Source of the DNA: Peptoanaerobacter stomatis | GTDB lineage: Bacteria > Bacillota > Clostridia > Peptostreptococcales > Filifactoraceae | Reading direction: 5' to 3' | Assembly: GCF_000238095.2 (NCBI RefSeq) | Contig: NZ_JH815225.1 | Span: forward strand, 212,724-276,723 | Length of the DNA: 64,000 bases | In this document: positions 19,696-29,013 of the stretch, piece after piece | Numbering within the stretch: position 1 is the stretch's first letter | Layout: every line of letters begins with the position of its first letter | Made by a program: the position numbers and the translations under genes | The notes under the pieces: model-generated | The model's database searches: none | What the model saw: the letters and a program-made list of their open reading frames with translations, nothing else | Told to the model about the DNA's origin: nothing

Positions 19696-20745
19696 ATGCG
19701 AGATTATAATTACGTAGAAAAATGGCATAAATTATTAACGCCTCAAATAGTTAAGAAGCTTGTTCTTATAAATGAATATAAGGGTAAATGTGGGATAATC
19801 ATTGAATCGTATAAATATGAACTTAATGAATTGATAGAAATTGCCAAAATTCAAAGTATAGAGGCTTCAAACAGAATGGAAAGTATTTTGGTAGCAAAGG
19901 ACAGATTGAAGAACTTAGTGCATGCGAAAACAATGCCTCGAAATAGTGAAGAGTGTGAAATAGTCGGATATAGAGATGTATTAAATATAATTCATGAGAA
20001 TTATGATTATATTCCAATAAATATTAATTACCTTCTACAATTGCATAGGGATTTATATAAATTTATTGGAAGTATTGATGGAGGTGTATTTAAAACATCG
20101 GATAACATTATTAGCGATACTAATGAGAATGGAAATGAGAGCGTTATATTTAGACCTGTATCTGCATTGGAAACATATTCTTCCATAGATGCATTGTGTA
20201 ATGCGTTTCATGAAGCAAAGGAAGAAGTTGATCCATTACTGCTTGATATAATGTTTATTTTAGATTTTATATGTATTCATCCGTTTAATGATGGAAATGC
20301 AAGAATTAGCAGGCTAATTACGTTACTTTTGTTACACCAATCAGGTTTTATAGTTGGCAAATACATTAGTATTGAAAAGATAATAGAAGAATCAAAAGAA
20401 AACTATTATAAAGCTATTGATAACAGCTACATTAAATGGCATGAAAATAAAAATGATTATAAGCCGTTTATAAATTATATGCTTGATGTGCTTATAAATG
20501 CTTATAAAGAATTTGAATATAAAGTGAATTTGTTGACGAATCCCCATTTTTCTAAAACGGATCGTATTCGAGAGATAATAAAAAATCATATAGGTACAAT
20601 TACAAAATCTGAGTTGATGGAAATGAATCCTTATATTAGTGATACAACAATTCAAAGAGCTTTAGCAGATTTGTTAAAAAATGGAAAAATAAAAAAAATA
20701 GGCGGAGGCCGTTACACAAAATATGTGTGGAAAGTGAAGGACTAA
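19696..20745 (+). CDS. Fic family protein with winged-helix C-terminus
   Basis: Fic-domain enzymes transfer AMP (or another nucleotide moiety) to target hydroxyls. The catalytic motif HPFNDGNARISR (195-206, catalytic His195) is intact. An N-terminal inhibitory-helix-like segment EASNRMES (about 56-63) fits the S-xxx-E pattern, with Ser in place of the usual final Gly/Asn. The C-terminal 65 residues (DRIREIIKNHIGTITKSELM, later TTIQRALADLLKNGKIKKIGGGRY) look like a winged-helix DNA-binding domain. Its stop codon abuts the ATG of hsdM with no gap, so the two are translationally coupled. Fic genes recur in type I RM loci. A regulatory or toxin-like role here is inference. Confidence 0.9.
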   Translation: MRDYNYVEKWHKLLTPQIVKKLVLINEYKGKCGIIIESYKYELNELIEIAKIQSIEASNRMESILVAKDRLKNLVHAKTMPRNSEECEIVGYRDVLNIIHENYDYIPININYLLQLHRDLYKFIGSIDGGVFKTSDNIISDTNENGNESVIFRPVSALETYSSIDALCNAFHEAKEEVDPLLLDIMFILDFICIHPFNDGNARISRLITLLLLHQSGFIVGKYISIEKIIEESKENYYKAIDNSYIKWHENKNDYKPFINYMLDVLINAYKEFEYKVNLLTNPHFSKTDRIREIIKNHIGTITKSELMEMNPYISDTTIQRALADLLKNGKIKKIGGGRYTKYVWKVKD

Positions 20746-22248
20746 ATGATAACAGGTGAATTAAAAAATAAAATTGATAGTTTATGGGATATATTTGCTG
20801 CAGGTGGATTAGTTAATCCTCTTGAAGTGATTGAGCAGATTACATATCTGATGTTTATTCATGATTTGGATGATTCAGATAATATAAGAGCAAAAGAAAG
20901 TGCAATGTTGGGGCTTCCTTATAAGAGTATTTTTTCAGAAGAAGTAAAAATTGGGGAAAGAACTGTCGATGGTTTACAATTAAAATGGTCTATTTTCCAT
21001 GATTTTCCAGCAGATAGAATGTACTCTGTAATACAAGAATGGGTATTCCCATTTATTAAAACATTGCACAGCGATAGAAATAGTGCTTATTCAAAATATA
21101 TGGATGATGCAATTTTCAAATTACCAACACCACTTGTTTTGTCAAAAGTTGTAGATTCATTAGATGAAATATATAAAGTAATGAATGAAATTCAGACTGC
21201 TGATGTACGAGGTGACGTATATGAGTACCTTTTATCTAAGATTGCACAGTCAGGATTGAATGGACAATTTAGAACTCCAAGACATATTATTCGTATGATG
21301 GTTGAAATGATGAACCCTTCAAGCGATGAAGTGATTTGTGATCCTGCATGTGGAACTTCAGGATTTTTAGTTGCATCAGCAGAATATCTGAAAGAAAAGA
21401 AAAAGGAAGAAATTTTCTTCGATAAGCAGAAAAAAGACCATTATATGAACCATATGTTTTACGGATATGATATGGATAGAACCATGCTTCGTATAGGAGC
21501 CATGAATATGATGACACATGGAATTGATAATCCATTCATTGAATATAGAGATAGCTTATCAGATCAAAATGCCGATAAAGATAAATACACACTTGTACTT
21601 GCAAATCCGCCATTTAAAGGAAGTCTTGATGCAGAATCAGTATCAGGAGATTTGCTCAAGATTTGTAAGACAAAGAAAACAGAATTATTGTTCCTTACTT
21701 TATTTCTTCGAATTCTTAAAATTGGCGGTCGTTGCGCTTGTATAGTTCCGGATGGAGTTTTATTCGGCTCTTCAAAAGCACATAAGGATATTAGAAGAGA
21801 AATAGTTGAGAATCATAGATTAGAGGCAATCATTTCTATGCCTTCAGGAGTATTTAAACCGTATGCAGGAGTTTCAACTGCTATTCTTGTGTTTACAAAA
21901 ACTGAGCATGGAGGAACAGACAATGTTTGGTTTTATGATATGAAAGCAGATGGCTTTAGCTTAGATGATAAACGCTCACCAATTGCAGAAAATGATATTG
22001 CAGATATTATTGAAAGATTTAAGAATTTAGAAAAGGAAACAGACAGAAAACGTACAGATAAATCATTTATGGTTCCAAAGAAAGATATTGTAAGTAATGA
22101 TTATGATCTTAGTATCAATAAATATAAAGAGATTGAGTATGTAGCAGTAGAATATCCTCCAACATCTGAAATTATGACAAATATTCGTGAAATTGAAATG
22201 GAAATTGGTAGGGAGATGGAAGAGCTGGAGAGATTGTTGGAGCTGTAG
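20746..22248 (+). CDS. hsdM: Type I restriction-modification DNA methyltransferase subunit
   Basis: N6-adenine methyltransferase subunit of a type I RM complex (M2S for methylation, R2M2S for cleavage). In 500 residues: the N-terminal helical HsdM_N domain (about 5-145), the S-AdoMet motif DPACGTSGF (199-207), and the catalytic NPPF (287-290). GGRCACIVPDGVLFGSSKAH and IISMPSGVFKPYAGVSTAIL also match the family. The start codon directly follows the Fic stop. hsdS begins 66 nt after its stop, separated by the first recombination-site-like repeat. Confidence 0.97.
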   Translation: MITGELKNKIDSLWDIFAAGGLVNPLEVIEQITYLMFIHDLDDSDNIRAKESAMLGLPYKSIFSEEVKIGERTVDGLQLKWSIFHDFPADRMYSVIQEWVFPFIKTLHSDRNSAYSKYMDDAIFKLPTPLVLSKVVDSLDEIYKVMNEIQTADVRGDVYEYLLSKIAQSGLNGQFRTPRHIIRMMVEMMNPSSDEVICDPACGTSGFLVASAEYLKEKKKEEIFFDKQKKDHYMNHMFYGYDMDRTMLRIGAMNMMTHGIDNPFIEYRDSLSDQNADKDKYTLVLANPPFKGSLDAESVSGDLLKICKTKKTELLFLTLFLRILKIGGRCACIVPDGVLFGSSKAHKDIRREIVENHRLEAIISMPSGVFKPYAGVSTAILVFTKTEHGGTDNVWFYDMKADGFSLDDKRSPIAENDIADIIERFKNLEKETDRKRTDKSFMVPKKDIVSNDYDLSINKYKEIEYVAVEYPPTSEIMTNIREIEMEIGREMEELERLLEL

Positions 22249-22270: not shown

Positions 22271-22301
22271 CCGAATTATGTCTTAAATAAATTCGGGTTT
22301 G
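22271..22301. repeat. Recombination-site-like repeat, copy 1 (upstream of first hsdS)
   Basis: Left arm CCGAATTAT (22271-22279), spacer GTCTTAA (22280-22286) and right arm ATAAATTCGG (22287-22296) form a near-perfect inverted pair around 7 bp, the usual anatomy of a tyrosine-recombinase core site. The 26 bases 22276-22301 recur exactly at 24455-24480 in the same orientation. The first hsdS ATG is 13 nt beyond it. Confidence 0.8.
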
Positions 22302-22314
22302 TATGGGATAGTGT

Positions 22315-23445
22315 ATGAAGATGATAAAGCTTGGTGATTTAGCTTCTTATATTAATGGGTACGCATTTAAGCCTGAAGATAGAGGAGATGTTGGACTACC
22401 TATCATTAGAATTCAAGATCTCACTGGAAACGCACATGACTTAGGATTTTATAATGGAGAATATCCACCAAAGATAGAAATTAATAATGGTGATGTGTTG
22501 ATATCTTGGTCTGCAAGTTTAGGAGTATATGTTTGGAACAGGGGTAAAGCATTATTAAACCAACATATTTTTAAAGTTGTTTTTGATAAAGAACATATTG
22601 ATAAAAATTATTTTATATATGCATTGATGTGTAAACTTTCTGAAATGAAGACAAAAACTCGTGGTGCAACTATGAAACATATTATAAAAAAAGACTTTGA
22701 TGCAATCATGATTCCCTATCCTCCTATATTGGAACAAATCAAAATTACTAATAAATTGGATAGGATTACTAAAATTATTGAACAAAGAAAACAAGAATTA
22801 CAGTTATTAGATAAGCTCATAAAAGCCCGATTTGTAGAGCTGTTTGGTGATCCAATTAGAAATCCCAAAGGCTGGGATGTTGTTACCATAGGTGATATCA
22901 TTGCCGATGTTAGGTATGGAACAAGTAAGCCGGCTGTTGAAGGTGGAAAATATCCTTATTTACGAATGAACAATCTTACTTCTGATGGTCATTTGGATTT
23001 GAATGATTTGAAATATATTGACATACCAGATGATGAAATAGAAAAGTGCGTTGTTAGAAAAGGCGATGTACTGTTTAACAGAACTAATAGTATTGAGTTG
23101 GTTGGAAAGACTGCAGTATTTGATTTGCCAGGGGATATGATTGTTGCTGGTTATATTATTCGTGTAAGACTTAATGGAAGATTGTTACCAGAAGTTCTTT
23201 CGCAGTATATGAATCTTGAAGTATTAAAAGATATACTGCGCTCTATGGCAAAAGGTGCCGTTAATCAGGCTAATATTAATGCGCAAGAATTACAGAGTAT
23301 TAAAATTTATGTGCCTGATATGGAGTTGCAAAAACAGTTTATTGAGATGAAACGCCAAGTCGATAAATCAAAAGTTGCAGTGCAAAAAGCACTTGATGAA
23401 ACGCAATTGTTGTTTGATTCATTAATGCAAAAATATTTTGGATAA
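22315..23445 (+). CDS. hsdS: Type I RM specificity subunit (first hsdS)
   Basis: HsdS sets the DNA target through two target-recognition domains (TRDs). This 376-residue copy is complete: TRD1 (about 1-150), central conserved helix (about 150-182, ending LIKARFVELFGDP), TRD2 (about 183-340: WDVVTIGDIIADVRYGTSKP, later GAVNQANINAQELQSIKIYVP) and the C-terminal conserved helix (RQVDKSKVAVQKALDETQLL). It is positioned directly behind hsdM and is presumably the expressed specificity gene. Its ribosome-binding site is weak (TATGGGATAG). Both TRDs differ clearly from those in the second hsdS. Short DNA identities in the conserved regions could support exchange. Confidence 0.93.
   Translation: MKMIKLGDLASYINGYAFKPEDRGDVGLPIIRIQDLTGNAHDLGFYNGEYPPKIEINNGDVLISWSASLGVYVWNRGKALLNQHIFKVVFDKEHIDKNYFIYALMCKLSEMKTKTRGATMKHIIKKDFDAIMIPYPPILEQIKITNKLDRITKIIEQRKQELQLLDKLIKARFVELFGDPIRNPKGWDVVTIGDIIADVRYGTSKPAVEGGKYPYLRMNNLTSDGHLDLNDLKYIDIPDDEIEKCVVRKGDVLFNRTNSIELVGKTAVFDLPGDMIVAGYIIRVRLNGRLLPEVLSQYMNLEVLKDILRSMAKGAVNQANINAQELQSIKIYVPDMELQKQFIEMKRQVDKSKVAVQKALDETQLLFDSLMQKYFG
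22822..22848 (+). repeat. Central conserved-region repeat in first hsdS
   Basis: 27 bp (AAAGCCCGATTTGTAGAG, then one mismatch and TGTTTGGT) shared at 26 of 27 positions with 25047-25073 in the second hsdS. It encodes KARFVE-FG between the two TRDs, so exchange here would reshuffle half-specificities. Confidence 0.8.
23356..23373 (+). repeat. C-terminal conserved-region repeat in first hsdS
   Basis: CAAGTCGATAAATCAAAA is identical at 25554-25571 in the second hsdS. In the second copy homology ends right after it and the reading frame stops three codons later. Confidence 0.8.
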
Positions 23446-23496
23446 ATAAGTTTATTTATGGTTGGATGATGTTGGTAGATATAAGGAGATACCAAC

Positions 23497-24465
23497 ATGG
23501 AAGAGAAAATAGTATTAGTACTTAATGAGATGGCAGAGTACTTGTCAATTAGTCAAATGAAAAAACTTCAAGAAGTGATTATTCGTAATTTTTCAGAAAA
23601 TGAGATCAAGAAAAAGGAAATATCCGATGAAGATTTTTTGAGAATGTTTCTTGAAGCAAAGCAGATAGAAGGTTGTTCGGAAAGAACAGTCAAATATTAT
23701 AAAACAACGATAGAACACTTATTTTACAAAGTAAAATCAGGCGTAAGAAAAATTACTACTGAGGAAATGCGAGAATATTTATCTAATTATCAAAAGATAA
23801 ATAATTGCACCAATGTAACAATTGATAACGTCCGTAGGAATATTTCCAGTTTCTTTTCGTGGCTTGAAGAAGAGGATTATATTTTAAAAAGTCCGATGAA
23901 AAGAATTCATAAAATTAAGACAAAAACGGTGGTTAAAAGTACAATCTCTGACGAGGAGATTGAACAATTAAGAGATAGTTGTAAAGAAAAGAGAGATTTA
24001 GCTATTATTGATTTGCTATATTCAACAGGAATAAGAGTGGGAGAGTTGGTAAACCTTAATATAGATGATATAGATCTTGAAGGTCGTGAATGTATTGTAT
24101 ATGGAAAAGGAGATAAAGAACGTAGAGTATATTTTGATGCGAAAGCAAAGGTTCACTTAAAAGAATACATAGATGAAAGAAAAGACGATAATAGAGCTCT
24201 TTTCGTTACTTTAGATTCACCTTATGACAGATTGAAAATAAGTGGTGTGGAAATTCGGCTTAGAAAACTTGGAAAAGAATTAAATTTGGAAAGAATACAT
24301 CCGCATAAGTTTAGGCGTTCAATGGCAACCAGAGCTATTGATAAGGGTATGCCAATAGAACAAGTACAGAAAATTCTTGGACATTCACAAATTGATACAA
24401 CAATGCAGTACGCAATGGTAAATCAAAATAATGTAAAAACATCTCATCAAAAATTTATGTCTTAA
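23497..24465 (+). CDS. Tyrosine recombinase (XerC/D-type) within the hsd locus
   Basis: Site-specific recombinase of the phage-integrase family, 322 residues. It has an N-terminal SAM-like core-binding domain (about 43-130) and a catalytic domain with all key residues: Arg180 (STGIRVGELVNL), Lys in GKGDKERRV (about 204), His270 and Arg273 (HPHKFRRS), His296 (LGHSQIDTT) and nucleophile Tyr305. A strong AAGGAG precedes the ATG. It lies between two hsdS genes, as in phase-variable type I systems where a recombinase swaps specificity sequences. Its last codons and stop (FMS-stop) lie inside the second recombination-site-like repeat, so the repeat is part of the gene. Confidence 0.95.
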   Translation: MEEKIVLVLNEMAEYLSISQMKKLQEVIIRNFSENEIKKKEISDEDFLRMFLEAKQIEGCSERTVKYYKTTIEHLFYKVKSGVRKITTEEMREYLSNYQKINNCTNVTIDNVRRNISSFFSWLEEEDYILKSPMKRIHKIKTKTVVKSTISDEEIEQLRDSCKEKRDLAIIDLLYSTGIRVGELVNLNIDDIDLEGRECIVYGKGDKERRVYFDAKAKVHLKEYIDERKDDNRALFVTLDSPYDRLKISGVEIRLRKLGKELNLERIHPHKFRRSMATRAIDKGMPIEQVQKILGHSQIDTTMQYAMVNQNNVKTSHQKFMS

Positions 24466-24480
24466 ATAAATTCGGGTTTG
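24449..24480. repeat. Recombination-site-like repeat, copy 2 (recombinase 3' end)
   Basis: Left arm AAAAATTTAT, spacer GTCTTAA (24459-24465) and right arm ATAAATTCGG (24466-24475). Bases 24455-24480 are identical to 22276-22301, a direct repeat 2,179 bp apart. The spacer contains the recombinase stop codon. The second hsdS ATG is 14 nt beyond the repeat, mirroring the first copy. Confidence 0.8.
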
Positions 24481-24494
24481 CAGGAATAACATAA

Positions 24495-25580
24495 ATGTTA
24501 AAAACAGTCGATGAGTGTTTCTTTTATATACAAAATGGAGCAAATATAAAGCAGGGAGATATTGATGGTGGATTTCCTATTACAAGAATAGAAACGATAG
24601 CAAATGATAAGTTTAACAGAGATAGAATGGGATTTGCTGGAATTATAAATCCAATAAAATATGAACAATATATACTTGAAGATGGAGATTTATTAATGTC
24701 ACATATTAATAGCGTTCAATATTTGGGAAGAACGGTATTATATGAAAAGATGGAAGATGAAGTTATAATACATGGTATGAATTTGTTGAGACTAAGAGCA
24801 AATAGAAATATAATTAATCCAGCTTATGCAAAATATTATTTTTATGGATATAAGTTTAAAAAACAGCTTAATAATATTATTAAGAAATCTGTTAATCAAG
24901 CAAGTTTTTCAGTAAAAGATTTAAAAAAAATAATAATTGATATTCCTACAATATCAGAACAAGACAAATTAGTTAAAATTCTTGATAAAGCACATAAAAT
25001 TATAAGAATTAGACAAAATGAGTTGCTTGAAATGAACAATCTTATTAAAGCCCGATTTGTAGAGATGTTTGGTACACCATATGGTAATGAAAAATGCTTT
25101 CCAATGATGACTGTTGACGATGTTATTGAGTTTACAGGTGGAGCTCAGCCAGATAAAAAATATTTTGAATATGAACCAACTGAAGATAATATCCGTTTGA
25201 TTCAGATAAGAGATTATAAGACGGATAATTATATTACATATATTCCAAAATCAATGGCTAAGAGATTTTGTGATTCCGATGATATTATGATTGGTAGATA
25301 CGGACCACCTATTTTTCAGATTCTTAAGGGTATTGAAGGTTCATATAATGTAGCTCTTATGAAAGCAATGCCAAAGATAGGAAATAAAGAATTTATAAGA
25401 TATTTTCTTAAACAAGAATGTTTATTTAATTACTTGGATGGATTATCACAGAGAACTGCTGGGCAGAGCGGAATAGATATGCCTGCACTAAAAGCATATC
25501 CATTACCGTATCCACCGATAGAACTTCAAAACGAGTTTGCCATTTTTGTAAAGCAAGTCGATAAATCAAAATTGATATAG
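24495..25580 (+). CDS. Second type I specificity subunit, C-terminally truncated (hsdS2)
   Basis: 361 residues with two TRDs unlike those of the first hsdS (TRD1 about 1-155; TRD2 about 195-345: MMTVDDVIEFTGGAQPDKKY, RTAGQSGIDMPALKAYPLPY). The central helix ends in LIKARFVEMFGTP, matching the first copy. The C-terminal conserved helix is cut to KQVDKSKLI; about 22 residues present in the first hsdS (VAVQKALDETQLLFDSLMQK) are missing. It may be a silent or alternative cassette, or a working subunit with a shortened second spacer helix. It is read in the same direction as the rest of the operon. Confidence 0.88.
   Translation: MLKTVDECFFYIQNGANIKQGDIDGGFPITRIETIANDKFNRDRMGFAGIINPIKYEQYILEDGDLLMSHINSVQYLGRTVLYEKMEDEVIIHGMNLLRLRANRNIINPAYAKYYFYGYKFKKQLNNIIKKSVNQASFSVKDLKKIIIDIPTISEQDKLVKILDKAHKIIRIRQNELLEMNNLIKARFVEMFGTPYGNEKCFPMMTVDDVIEFTGGAQPDKKYFEYEPTEDNIRLIQIRDYKTDNYITYIPKSMAKRFCDSDDIMIGRYGPPIFQILKGIEGSYNVALMKAMPKIGNKEFIRYFLKQECLFNYLDGLSQRTAGQSGIDMPALKAYPLPYPPIELQNEFAIFVKQVDKSKLI
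25047..25073 (+). repeat. Central conserved-region repeat in second hsdS
   Basis: Partner of the 27-bp segment at 22822-22848, with one mismatch. Confidence 0.8.
25554..25571 (+). repeat. C-terminal conserved-region repeat in second hsdS
   Basis: Partner of the 18-bp segment at 23356-23373. It marks the point where hsdS2 loses similarity to hsdS and terminates. Confidence 0.8.
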
Positions 25581-25668
25581 GAGATTTACATAAGAAAAAT
25601 AAGATTAAAAATGGAAATTGACAATTTTATAAATATATTTAGAAAAAATATTGAATAGGAGGTTTCCT

Positions 25669-28600
25669 ATGATTACAAACTTTGATTATCTAAAAAATGA
25701 ATCAAAATTTTCTACATTTGCAGATGTTGCAATATCTGCAGAGAAAATCATCCTTATGGATCCTCAGGCAAGTATTATAAATAGTCGTAGAGCTATGGAG
25801 TTTGCATTAAAGTGGATGTATTCTGTAGATGCGGAACTTAAAATGCCATATCAAGATAATTTACAAAGTTTGATGAATGCAGAAGAGTATAGACAGATTG
25901 TGGGACATGATCTTTGGAAACGTATGGATTATATCCGTAGAAGTGGAAATAATGTTGCGCATAGTAACAAAAAACTTGGAAGAGATGAGGCTATGCTTTG
26001 TCTTGAAAATCTGTTTATTTATTTGGACTACATTGCATATTGTTATTCTGATAAGTACGAAGAACATTTTTTTGACAAAACAATAATTATTTCTCGAATA
26101 GAGAAAGCAAAGGAATCAAAAGAGAATGTTAATGTTGTAAAAGAAGAATTAGCAAAAGAACAGGAAAAGTCTGCAAAACAAGAACTTGATTTACAGAAAT
26201 TAATTGCAGAAAATGCCTCACTTAAAGAAGAACTTTCGAATAGAAGACAGGAACAACAGCAAACTTATGTGCCTAAGCCTCTTGATTTATCTGAATATAA
26301 AACAAGAAAACTCTACATTGATTCTATGCTGATGGATGCAGGTTGGATAGAAGGTAAGAATTGGCTTAATGAGGTCGAACTTTCTGGAATGCCAAACAAA
26401 TCTGAAGTGGGATATGCGGATTATGTTCTTTATGATGACATGCATAAACCATTGGCTGTAATAGAGGCAAAAAGAACTTGTGTTGACGTTTCTAAGGGAA
26501 GGCAACAGGCTAAACTATATGCTGATTTATTAGAACAAAAATATAAGAGAAGACCGGTTATTTTTCTTACAAATGGATTTGAAACTCATATTATTGATGG
26601 ACAATATCCGGAGAGAAAATGTTCGCTTATTTATTCAAAAAGAGACTTGGAAAAGTGGTTCAATTTGATGAGAATGAGAACAAGTCTAAAACATGTCGTA
26701 GTAGATAAGAATATTGCCGGACGATATTATCAAGAATCTGCTATTAAAGCAGTTTGCAGTAGCTTTGATGAAAAGAATCGGAGAAAAGCTTTGCTGGTTA
26801 TGGCAACGGGTTCTGGGAAGACAAGAACAGTTATTGCATTATGTGATTGTTTACTGAAATCAGGATGGGTAAAGAATATCTTGTTTCTTGCTGATAGAAA
26901 CTCACTTGTTACACAGGCTAAAAGAAGCTTTGTAAATATGTTGCCTAATTTATCATGTACAAACCTTGTTGAAGAAAAAGATAACTATAGTGCACATTGT
27001 GTATTTTCAACGTATCAAACAATGATTAACTGTATTGATACGATAAATGATAAAGAAGGGAAACTCTTTACATGTGGTCATTTTGATCTTGTAATTTGCG
27101 ATGAGGCTCATAGGTCTATTTATAACAAATATGCAGATATTTTTTCATATTTTGATGCTCCACTTATTGGACTTACAGCTACACCGAAGGATGAAATTGA
27201 TAAGAATACTTATGAAACCTTTGAATTGGAAAACGGAGTACCGACTTATGGTTATGATTTAGCACAGGCTGTAAAGGATGGATATCTCGTTGATTATGTA
27301 TCTGTTGAATTAAAACTTAAGTTTATTGAGCAGGGAATTGTGTATGATGAATTATCGGAAGAAGATAAAAAAGCATATGAGGAGACATTTCAAAATGAGC
27401 AGGGTGATTTGCCAAAATCAATAGGTTCATCAGCACTTAATAGATGGATATTTAATGAGGATACTATAAAACAAGTATTAAATATTTTGATGACAGATGG
27501 TATCAAGATTGATTACGGACAGAAATTAGGAAAGACTATTATTTTTGCAAAAAATCATGATCATGCAGAAAAAATTTTGGAAGTTTTTAATAAAGAGTAT
27601 CCGTATCTTCTTAATTATGCAAAGGTAATAGATAATTATATGACCTACGCACAGAGTGTTATTGACGAGTTTTCTGATTCAAGGAAAATGCCTCAGATTG
27701 CAATTTCCGTAGATATGTTAGATACAGGTATTGATGTACCGGAAGTTTTGAATCTGGTTTTCTTTAAAAAGGTTATGAGTAAAGCAAAATTTTGGCAGAT
27801 GATTGGTCGTGGTACAAGACTTTGTCCCGGTCTATTAGATGGAGAAGACAAGGAGAAATTCTATATATTTGATTTTTGCGGAAACTTTGAATTTTTCAGA
27901 ATGAATAAAGGAAAAGCTACTGCTAACATGATTGCAATTCAAGGGGCAATTTTTAATCTGAAATTTGAGATTTCATATAAACTTCAAGATATAGATTATC
28001 AGATTGATAGCTTGATTGCATATAGAAATACATTGGTTAAACAAATGAGCGAGAAGGTACAGGAATTGCCAAGAAATAACTTTGCTGTTCGTCAGCACTT
28101 GAAATATGTAGAATTGTACTGCTCAGAAGCAAATTATCAGACTATAACATATGAAGATACATTGATTGTAAAAGAAGAGGTTGCACCTTTGATATTACCG
28201 GATAGAGAAGATATAAGCGCTGTGAGATTTGATGCGATTATGTATGGAATTGAACTGGCTTATTTATATGGAAAGAAGTATTCGAAAGCTCGTACTGATT
28301 TGTATACGAAAGTTGCAGGTATTTCAATTGTTGCCAATATATCTGAAATTCAAGCACAGTCAGCTTTTATTAATCAAATTCTTAATACAGATTATATTGA
28401 TAATGCCGGAATAAATGAATTTGAAGAAATAAGAAAAAGGCTACGTAATTTGATGAAGTATATTCCAAAAGAAATGATTAAATATGTAACAAACTTTACT
28501 GATGAACTTATTTCAACGCAATGGAAAGAATCTGAGCTTGAGAATGATGAACTTAAGAATTATAAGGCAAAGGCAGAATATTATATTAGGCAAAATCAGA

Positions 28601-29013
28601 ACAATATTGCTATTGCAAAGTTAAAGACAAATCAACCTTTAACTAAGCAAGATGTTGCTTCATTAGAAGAAATATTATGGTGTGAAATTGGAACAAAGCA
28701 GGATTATGAAAATGAAATTGGAACAAAACCGCTTGGTGAATTTGTTCGTGAGATTGTAGGGTTGGATATGAATGCAGCCAAAGAAGCATTCTCAGAATAT
28801 TTGACAAGTACAAGTCTTGATAGCAGACAAATTTACTTCGTAAATCAGATTGTTGAATACATTGTTCATAATGGAATGATGAGAGATCTTTCTGTGCTTC
28901 AGGAATCTCCGTTTACAGATCAGGGAAGTGTCGTTGAGATATTTAAAGATTTGACTGTATGGATGGGAATTAGAAAGGTTATAGATACAATAAATAATAA
29001 TGCGGCAGCATAA
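25669..29013 (+). CDS. hsdR: Type I restriction endonuclease subunit R
   Basis: Motor and nuclease subunit that translocates and cuts unmodified DNA (1,114 residues). It has an N-terminal DUF4145-like domain (about 1-130), a coiled-coil linker (about 145-195), a PD-(D/E)xK nuclease with YADYVLY and IEAKR (Glu266, Lys268), a SF2 motor with ATGSGKT (about 378), DEAH (about 478) and LTATP, then DMLDTGIDVPEV and QMIGRGTRLCPG (about 715). An EcoEI-like C-terminal domain mediates complex assembly. ATG 25669 follows AGGAGG with 5-nt spacing; an in-frame TTG at 25651 is less likely. All catalytic motifs are intact, so restriction should be functional. Confidence 0.96.
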   Translation: MITNFDYLKNESKFSTFADVAISAEKIILMDPQASIINSRRAMEFALKWMYSVDAELKMPYQDNLQSLMNAEEYRQIVGHDLWKRMDYIRRSGNNVAHSNKKLGRDEAMLCLENLFIYLDYIAYCYSDKYEEHFFDKTIIISRIEKAKESKENVNVVKEELAKEQEKSAKQELDLQKLIAENASLKEELSNRRQEQQQTYVPKPLDLSEYKTRKLYIDSMLMDAGWIEGKNWLNEVELSGMPNKSEVGYADYVLYDDMHKPLAVIEAKRTCVDVSKGRQQAKLYADLLEQKYKRRPVIFLTNGFETHIIDGQYPERKCSLIYSKRDLEKWFNLMRMRTSLKHVVVDKNIAGRYYQESAIKAVCSSFDEKNRRKALLVMATGSGKTRTVIALCDCLLKSGWVKNILFLADRNSLVTQAKRSFVNMLPNLSCTNLVEEKDNYSAHCVFSTYQTMINCIDTINDKEGKLFTCGHFDLVICDEAHRSIYNKYADIFSYFDAPLIGLTATPKDEIDKNTYETFELENGVPTYGYDLAQAVKDGYLVDYVSVELKLKFIEQGIVYDELSEEDKKAYEETFQNEQGDLPKSIGSSALNRWIFNEDTIKQVLNILMTDGIKIDYGQKLGKTIIFAKNHDHAEKILEVFNKEYPYLLNYAKVIDNYMTYAQSVIDEFSDSRKMPQIAISVDMLDTGIDVPEVLNLVFFKKVMSKAKFWQMIGRGTRLCPGLLDGEDKEKFYIFDFCGNFEFFRMNKGKATANMIAIQGAIFNLKFEISYKLQDIDYQIDSLIAYRNTLVKQMSEKVQELPRNNFAVRQHLKYVELYCSEANYQTITYEDTLIVKEEVAPLILPDREDISAVRFDAIMYGIELAYLYGKKYSKARTDLYTKVAGISIVANISEIQAQSAFINQILNTDYIDNAGINEFEEIRKRLRNLMKYIPKEMIKYVTNFTDELISTQWKESELENDELKNYKAKAEYYIRQNQNNIAIAKLKTNQPLTKQDVASLEEILWCEIGTKQDYENEIGTKPLGEFVREIVGLDMNAAKEAFSEYLTSTSLDSRQIYFVNQIVEYIVHNGMMRDLSVLQESPFTDQGSVVEIFKDLTVWMGIRKVIDTINNNAAA

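Follow-up and report, generated by a model that had tools for sequence, protein, structure and literature searches.

Three direct-repeat site types around a TvrR-like recombinase in a type I restriction-modification locus of Peptoanaerobacter stomatis: a probable excision/re-integration switch of hsdS specificity

The window, a stretch of 64,000 nucleotides from a contig of Peptoanaerobacter stomatis, contains a complete type I restriction-modification locus whose genes, identified from open reading frames and Pfam matches, are arranged on the plus strand in the order fic-hsdM-hsdS1-recombinase-hsdS2-hsdR. The genes and repeat sites of the locus, in window coordinates, are:

19696-20745, plus strand: gene of a Fic-family protein (Pfam Fic, 1.7e-13), adjoining the 5' end of hsdM
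20746-22248, plus strand: hsdM, type I methyltransferase (Pfam N6_Mtase, 4.4e-66; HsdM_N)
22276-22301, plus strand: 26-nt direct repeat, copy 1, with the 5' site core TAAA-TTCGGG-TTTG at 22288-22301
22315-23445, plus strand: hsdS1, 376 aa, two TRDs (Pfam Methylase_S, 4.4e-36)
22821-22839, plus strand: mid site in hsdS1, AAAA-GCCCGA-TTTGTAGAG
23356-23377, plus strand: end site in hsdS1, CAAGTCGATAAA-TCAAAA-GTTG
23497-24465, plus strand: tyrosine recombinase, TvrR-like, 322 aa (Pfam Phage_integrase, 1.4e-38; NCBIfam NF040815, above cutoff)
24455-24480, plus strand: 26-nt direct repeat, copy 2, with the 5' site core at 24467-24480; overlaps the 3' end of the recombinase gene
24495-25580, plus strand: hsdS2, 361 aa, two TRDs, without C-terminal tail (Pfam Methylase_S, 2.4e-16)
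25046-25064, plus strand: mid site in hsdS2, TAAA-GCCCGA-TTTGTAGAG
25554-25575, plus strand: end site in hsdS2, CAAGTCGATAAA-TCAAAA-TTGA
25651-29013, plus strand: hsdR, type I restriction subunit (Pfam ResIII, 4.9e-39; EcoEI_R_C, 7.1e-19)

According to the list of open reading frames, all genes of the locus are open and of full length. The recombinase combines a Phage_integrase domain with the residues R180, K204, H270, R273, H296 and Y305, which are invariant across the family in the alignment and which we take to be the catalytic residues (R-K-H-R-H-Y) of tyrosine recombinases; it is assigned to the Xer/integrase superfamily. Its gene is separated from hsdS1 by a gap of 51 bp that harbors no accessory gene. 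The fic gene, which in many relatives is likewise located 5' of hsdM, lies outside the segment predicted to be excisable.

The initial annotation had described an exact 26-nt sequence, TTATGTCTTAAATAAATTCGGGTTTG, occurring at 22276-22301 and 24455-24480 in the same orientation with a spacing of 2,179 bp. These coordinates were confirmed, as were the position of a tyrosine recombinase gene between the two copies, with its stop codon (24463-24465) inside copy 2, and the closeness of the repeats to the hsdS starts, with 13 nt between copy 1 and the ATG of hsdS1 and 14 nt between copy 2 and that of hsdS2. By a simple estimate, an exact 26-nt match inside a 3-kb block would arise by chance with a probability of about 1e-7; a search with the first 21 nt of the repeat, allowing up to three mismatches, found no third copy in the 2.33-Mb genome. 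The inverted arms previously read around a spacer GTCTTAA (CCGAATTAT-GTCTTAA-ATAAATTCGG) are legible in copy 1, but copy 2 offers just AATTTAT-GTCTTAA-ATAAATT, and neither these arms nor GTCTTAA as a core spacer are conserved in relatives. Comparison with the latter instead defines TAAA-TTCGGG-TTTG as the conserved core of the 5' site. The 12 nt to the left of this core (22276-22287 and 24455-24466; TTATGTCTTAAA) are identical in both copies and represent the 3' end of the recombinase gene; the copy of TTATGTCTTAAA upstream of hsdS1 fits a past transfer of the recombinase-side left arm to the hsdM side. Across 34 loci, identity extending leftward from the end of the left arm has a median of 2 nt and a maximum of 16 nt, the maximum being the window's own value.

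The 26-nt repeat belongs to a set of three direct-repeat pairs, located at the start, in the middle and at the end of both hsdS genes, of which it is the 5' one. The two further pairs, of 18 nt each, had been missed; they are formed by AAAGCCCGATTTGTAGAG at 22822/25047 and CAAGTCGATAAATCAAAA at 23356/25554. All three sites share one core of the type [C/T]AAA-N6-TTTG, in which N6 differs by place: the window sites read TAAA-TTCGGG-TTTG (5'), AAA-GCCCGA-TTTGTAGAG (mid) and CGATAAA-TCAAAA-(G)TTG (end), and the corresponding consensus sequences of the relatives are [C/T]AAA-TTCGGA/TTGAGA/TTCGGG/...-TTTGTaGGG, TCAAA-GCCCGA-TTTGTCGAG and GTCGACAAA-TCAAAA-GTTG. In each of the three pairs of the window, the spacers are identical within the pair. 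With an end site whose right arm is weak and a 5' site whose left arm varies, the predicted binding site of the recombinase is only partly defined.

In the window, the genes of the locus and the three site pairs are all in direct orientation. An hsdS inverton, characterized by inverted repeats and by hsdS genes on opposite strands, was considered and rejected, as the hsdS block showed only short, chance-like inverted repeats and the genome yielded no additional copy of the repeat. A locus of the inverton type that encodes a recombinase with 52% identity to that of the window occurs twice in one assembly (L136 and L137; G156:C1:16800-29200 and 2137400-2149800), near both ends of one contig. The flanks of the two copies (about 4.0 and 3.7 kb) are 99.97% identical, the arrangement differs, and all four breakpoints are at TAAATGATAATTTA, i.e. 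TAAA-N6-TTTA; the duplication is probably an uncollapsed overlap of the contig ends of about 51 kb, in which both phases were caught. In SsuCC20p of Streptococcus suis, switching at TAAATCATCATTTA was shown experimentally to depend on xerD (PMC10790761). Together, these breakpoints and the S. suis site support the parsing of the core into 4+6+4 nucleotides. The two other genomes of the genus of the window strain, G001 (L028) and G002 (L027), contain an inverton-type version of the locus instead, with recombinases 56-57% identical to that of the window.

A scan of species genomes yielded at least 80 loci with recombinases 66-88% identical to that of the window. Among the matches listed, nearly all complete loci, which stem from dozens of Firmicutes, show the order hsdM-hsdS-recombinase-hsdS-hsdR with all genes on the same strand and, in many cases, fic ahead of hsdM, and the recombinase gene lies between two hsdS genes in nearly all of them. 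Repeat placement was analyzed, with a threshold of 13 bp for direct repeats, in 50 loci from these matches in which two full hsdS genes flank the recombinase. Direct repeats linking the two hsdS regions are located 5' of the start in 38, at the midpoint in 47 and at the 3' end in 43 of the 50 loci, as compared to only two loci with repeats elsewhere, and identity at the sites often extends over just 12-30 bp. The 5' site anchored at the recombinase stop is situated a median of 5.5 nt behind the stop codon. The initial annotation had made its proposal dependent on conservation of the repeat next to the recombinase in relatives; the repeat is present in most of them, and the proposal survives this comparison.

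Tyrosine recombinases require identical spacers in the two partner sites, as in the Cre, Flp and Xer systems, but not across loci. The 5' spacers vary among loci (TTCGGA, TTGAGA, TTCGGG, TTGAGG, TTGATA, TTCAGG, TTTGGA, TCCGGG, TTGTTA and others), but match within the locus in 40 of 49 cases, as compared to a mean of 8.1 and a maximum of 17 in 20,000 permutations that ignore the kinship of loci; with the search used, no match was found in the other nine. When the site is located from the recombinase stop, 34 of 39 loci show a match (6.3 expected from permutation, kinship again ignored). Spacers of the mid and end sites hardly vary, with matches within the locus in 48/49 cases versus 42.3 expected (mid) and 45/50 versus 32.9 expected (end), again with disregard of kinship; their rare variants still match inside one locus. 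None of the 5' spacers equals the mid spacer GCCCGA. Because it is non-coding, the 5' site bears most of the weight of the evidence.

The two hsdS genes differ at their 3' ends. hsdS1 carries a fixed C-terminal tail of 27 aa 3' of the end site, and the distance from the end site to the stop codon is 83 nt in 45 of 48 hsdS1 copies, versus 17-140 nt in hsdS2, of the relatives among the matches listed; in hsdS2 of the window it is about 20 nt. Judged from this organization, hsdS1, which is located behind hsdM and has a tail that never moves, is the probable expressed copy, and hsdS2 probably serves as a storage copy.

Comparison of hsdS sequences revealed modules that had been swapped as half-genes. 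In Lachnoanaerobaculum, the N-terminal TRD of hsdS1 in locus L044 corresponds to that of hsdS2 in L046 (97% identity over 607 nt, with flanks of 87-91%), and the N-terminal TRD of hsdS2 in L044 matches, at 95% over 549 nt, the one in hsdS1 of L145. The left border of each block coincides with the first base of the 5' site, and the right border lies 11-15 nt past the mid site. In two genomes of the Lactobacillus group (L133/L134), a mosaic has these same borders. Across the blocks that loci have in common, 36 of 49 boundaries inside hsdS are no more than 30 nt from a site in each of the two sequences, the chance value being about 20% for one sequence. Mid and end sites are part of conserved coding sequence, which alone favors block ends there, and the mosaics of sister species could partly be due to homologous recombination and transfer. 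Since some shared blocks cross genera, namely an N-terminal TRD shared by Catonella (L036) and Lachnoanaerobaculum (L044) with 91% identity and a C-terminal TRD shared by the Lachnospiraceae loci L061 and L095 with 97% identity, TRD modules also move between genomes. The moving unit had been proposed to consist of hsdS plus the recombinase gene; the comparison points to N-terminal (5' to mid site) and C-terminal (mid to end site) TRD modules instead. In locus L055 (8113-8210), hsdS2 is devoid of an N-terminal TRD, and a midpoint repeat of 47 nt follows directly on a 47-nt 5' repeat, which looks like the precise removal of a single module.

Taken together, we consider it likely that the locus is a TvrR-like excision/re-integration switch of hsdS specificity with three direct-repeat site types, related to the pneumococcal tvr (SpnIV) system. 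Because the direct repeats behave like the recombination sites of the enclosed recombinase, excision and re-entry, as put forward in the initial annotation, are the expected reaction, and they are well supported by the location of the relatives' site next to the recombinase stop, by the matching spacers and by the TRD breaks at the sites. The window recombinase would catalyze recombination between matching sites, whereby a circle carrying its own gene would be excised: hsdS1 and the recombinase (2,179 bp) from the 5' sites, C1-recombinase-N2 (2,225 bp) from the mid sites, and the recombinase and hsdS2 (2,198 bp) from the end sites. Re-entry of a circle at another site type would re-order the four TRD half-genes, such that hsdS1 would become N2C2 (5'), N1C2 (mid) or remain the original (end), N2C1 requiring two steps. 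With common arms and distinct 6-bp spacers, each site type is predicted to recombine with its own kind only; this spacer rule would keep N- and C-terminal TRDs in their places, and the 5' site would allow all four N/C combinations to reach hsdS1. Switching of the window strain would be expected to change its methylation motif, one cell line reshuffling which DNA sequence is marked and attacked. A search of phage and plasmid records as well as viral contigs for the free circle retrieved four small "phage" scaffolds (L121-L124) with a relative of the recombinase but without terminal repeat; three of them carry pieces of hsdS, and two also hsdM, so that they do not count as evidence of a circle. 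Locus L099 (L. johnsonii) was set aside because stretches of N flank its recombinase gene.

The window strain is known from one consensus assembly with a single arrangement, no circle or rearranged form of the locus having been found, which is also what a frozen remnant would show, i.e., a system that worked in relatives and became locked in one stable arrangement in this strain. The left extension of the 5' repeat, the longest among the 34 loci, points in the same direction. However, all genes are open and of full length and the spacers are identical in all three site pairs, which makes such a loss of function unlikely.

In a different explanation, hsdS1 and the recombinase form a self-mobile cassette that is bounded by the 26-bp repeats, has GTCTTAA as core spacer and undergoes integron-like excision and re-entry. 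Attachment sites often adjoin the end of a recombinase gene, and the repeat indeed overlaps the 3' end of the recombinase gene, while most relatives have a 5' site beside the recombinase stop; besides, TRD modules common to several genera end at the sites, which lends weak support to an exchange of cassettes. However, two more conserved site pairs cut through hsdS, the modules that differ among relatives are half-genes rather than hsdS plus recombinase, the recombinase remains between two hsdS genes in nearly all loci listed, and the GTCTTAA core is not conserved, so that this explanation appears quite improbable. The locus shares with integrons a recombinase and exchangeable gene pieces at fixed sites, but it lacks attI/attC arrays and promoter-proximal capture of free cassettes, and the recombinase gene lies inside the moving segment. 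Classification of the recombinase as an IntI-type integrase was rejected (NCBIfam TIGR02249, score 89 versus a cutoff of 265; no further genomic copies of the repeat).

That the repeats are passive, with mosaics made by RecA-type homologous recombination or transfer and an incidental or decayed recombinase, is suggested by the location of mid and end repeats within conserved HsdS coding sequence and by pneumococcal switching that is in part recombinase-independent (PMC6265443), but is very improbable given a non-coding 5' site with spacers matched within but not between loci, identity of often merely 12-30 bp at the sites, and an intact, always resident recombinase with all catalytic residues.

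The excision/re-integration switch had been presented as a departure from known, inverting loci; an experimental precedent exists, as the tvr locus shuffles hsdS TRDs by tvrR-dependent excision-reintegration, with circles (PMC6265443, PMC4263131). In tvr, tvrA and tvrT precede tvrR, direct repeats occur at the midpoint and tail end only, and the first N-terminal TRD, lacking a 5' repeat, is immobile (PMC6265443). The window conforms to the "2+2" form of tvr, with hsdM-hsdS-(accessory genes)-tyrosine recombinase-hsdS-hsdR in this order and all on the same strand, and has direct repeats with a shared core at the hsdS midpoint and tail; by analogy, circular intermediates carrying the recombinase would be expected, and some relatives of the window contain toxin-antitoxin-like accessory genes in the equivalent slot. 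In contrast to tvr with its two repeat types, a third type of site, with a spacer of its own, precedes each hsdS gene of the window at its 5' end, and tvrAT (phd-doc), which in tvr lies between hsdS and the recombinase, is absent. Unlike in tvr, the third repeat pair would let every TRD piece move. Excision-reintegration of hsdS at direct repeats being known from tvr (PMC6265443), this third pair is the addition made here; no description of a third repeat in such loci was found in the literature searched, the coverage of which is incomplete. Comparison with tvr-like loci was performed via the stand-ins L154/L163 and L155 (Fic/Doc-type gene in the slot) rather than pneumococcal TvrR itself. The recombinases of L155 and L163 are about 56% identical to that of the window and belong to a branch with inverton-type members that excludes the window clade with 100/100 support; the hsdM-hsdS gap of L163 is 12 bp. 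Since L155 and L163 carry the mid spacer (TCCCGA) at the site after the recombinase, the window clade differs from them in having a third type of site whose spacer is private to it.

SsuCC20p and the inverton-type relatives (L027-L030, L136/L137) resemble the window in the form of the site (TAAA-N6-TTTA) and in the shuffling of hsdS TRDs, the recombinases of these relatives, rather than S. suis XerD itself, being 52-58% identical to that of the window; however, their sites are inverted, so that segments invert, and they have one spacer type and split hsdS halves on both strands. The pneumococcal SpnIII/ivr/cod locus (CreX/IvrR/PsrA) likewise switches hsdS TRDs by a tyrosine recombinase, but by inversion at inverted repeats of 15, 85 and 298-333 bp (PMC7096588, PMC10790761). 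Surveys of phase-variable type I systems mostly sought inverted repeats (for example PMC7394358), so that direct-repeat loci, which are frequent here among gut and oral Firmicutes, readily escape detection.

A more speculative proposal, to which we assign only a minor likelihood, combines a spacer code (three 6-bp spacers between the same arms) for in-register shuffling of hsdS into full N/C combinations with excised circles or TRD modules that would be shared between cells and genera as a gut and oral cassette pool and be captured at the sites. If the spacer code were true, the locus would be a natural case of one recombinase serving three orthogonal site pairs and would explain in a testable way why N-terminal TRDs never trade places with C-terminal ones, with four methylation specificities per locus versus a smaller set without the 5' site.

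The slot between hsdS1 and the recombinase, which corresponds to that of tvrAT, is occupied by a DUF3990 gene in 13 of the 50 relatives (L059:6032-6954 and 12 similar loci); in ten of them another small gene, conserved but with no Pfam match, comes next, and the two are candidates for a toxin-antitoxin or regulator pair. Other occupants of the slot are TIR-domain, Zeta-toxin-like, HipA-like or YhcG nuclease genes. Loci L042 (5451-6578), L062, L079 and L109 contain related genes in this position, with a Pfam TIR domain in the L042 copy, possibly representing defense cargo on the excisable segment. Close relatives of the recombinase with 66-79% identity are also encoded on contigs labelled Gastranaerophilales, Akkermansia, Saccharibacteria and Thermoguttaceae (L048, L089, L090, L108, L110), due to either cross-phylum transfer or misbinning of MAG contigs.
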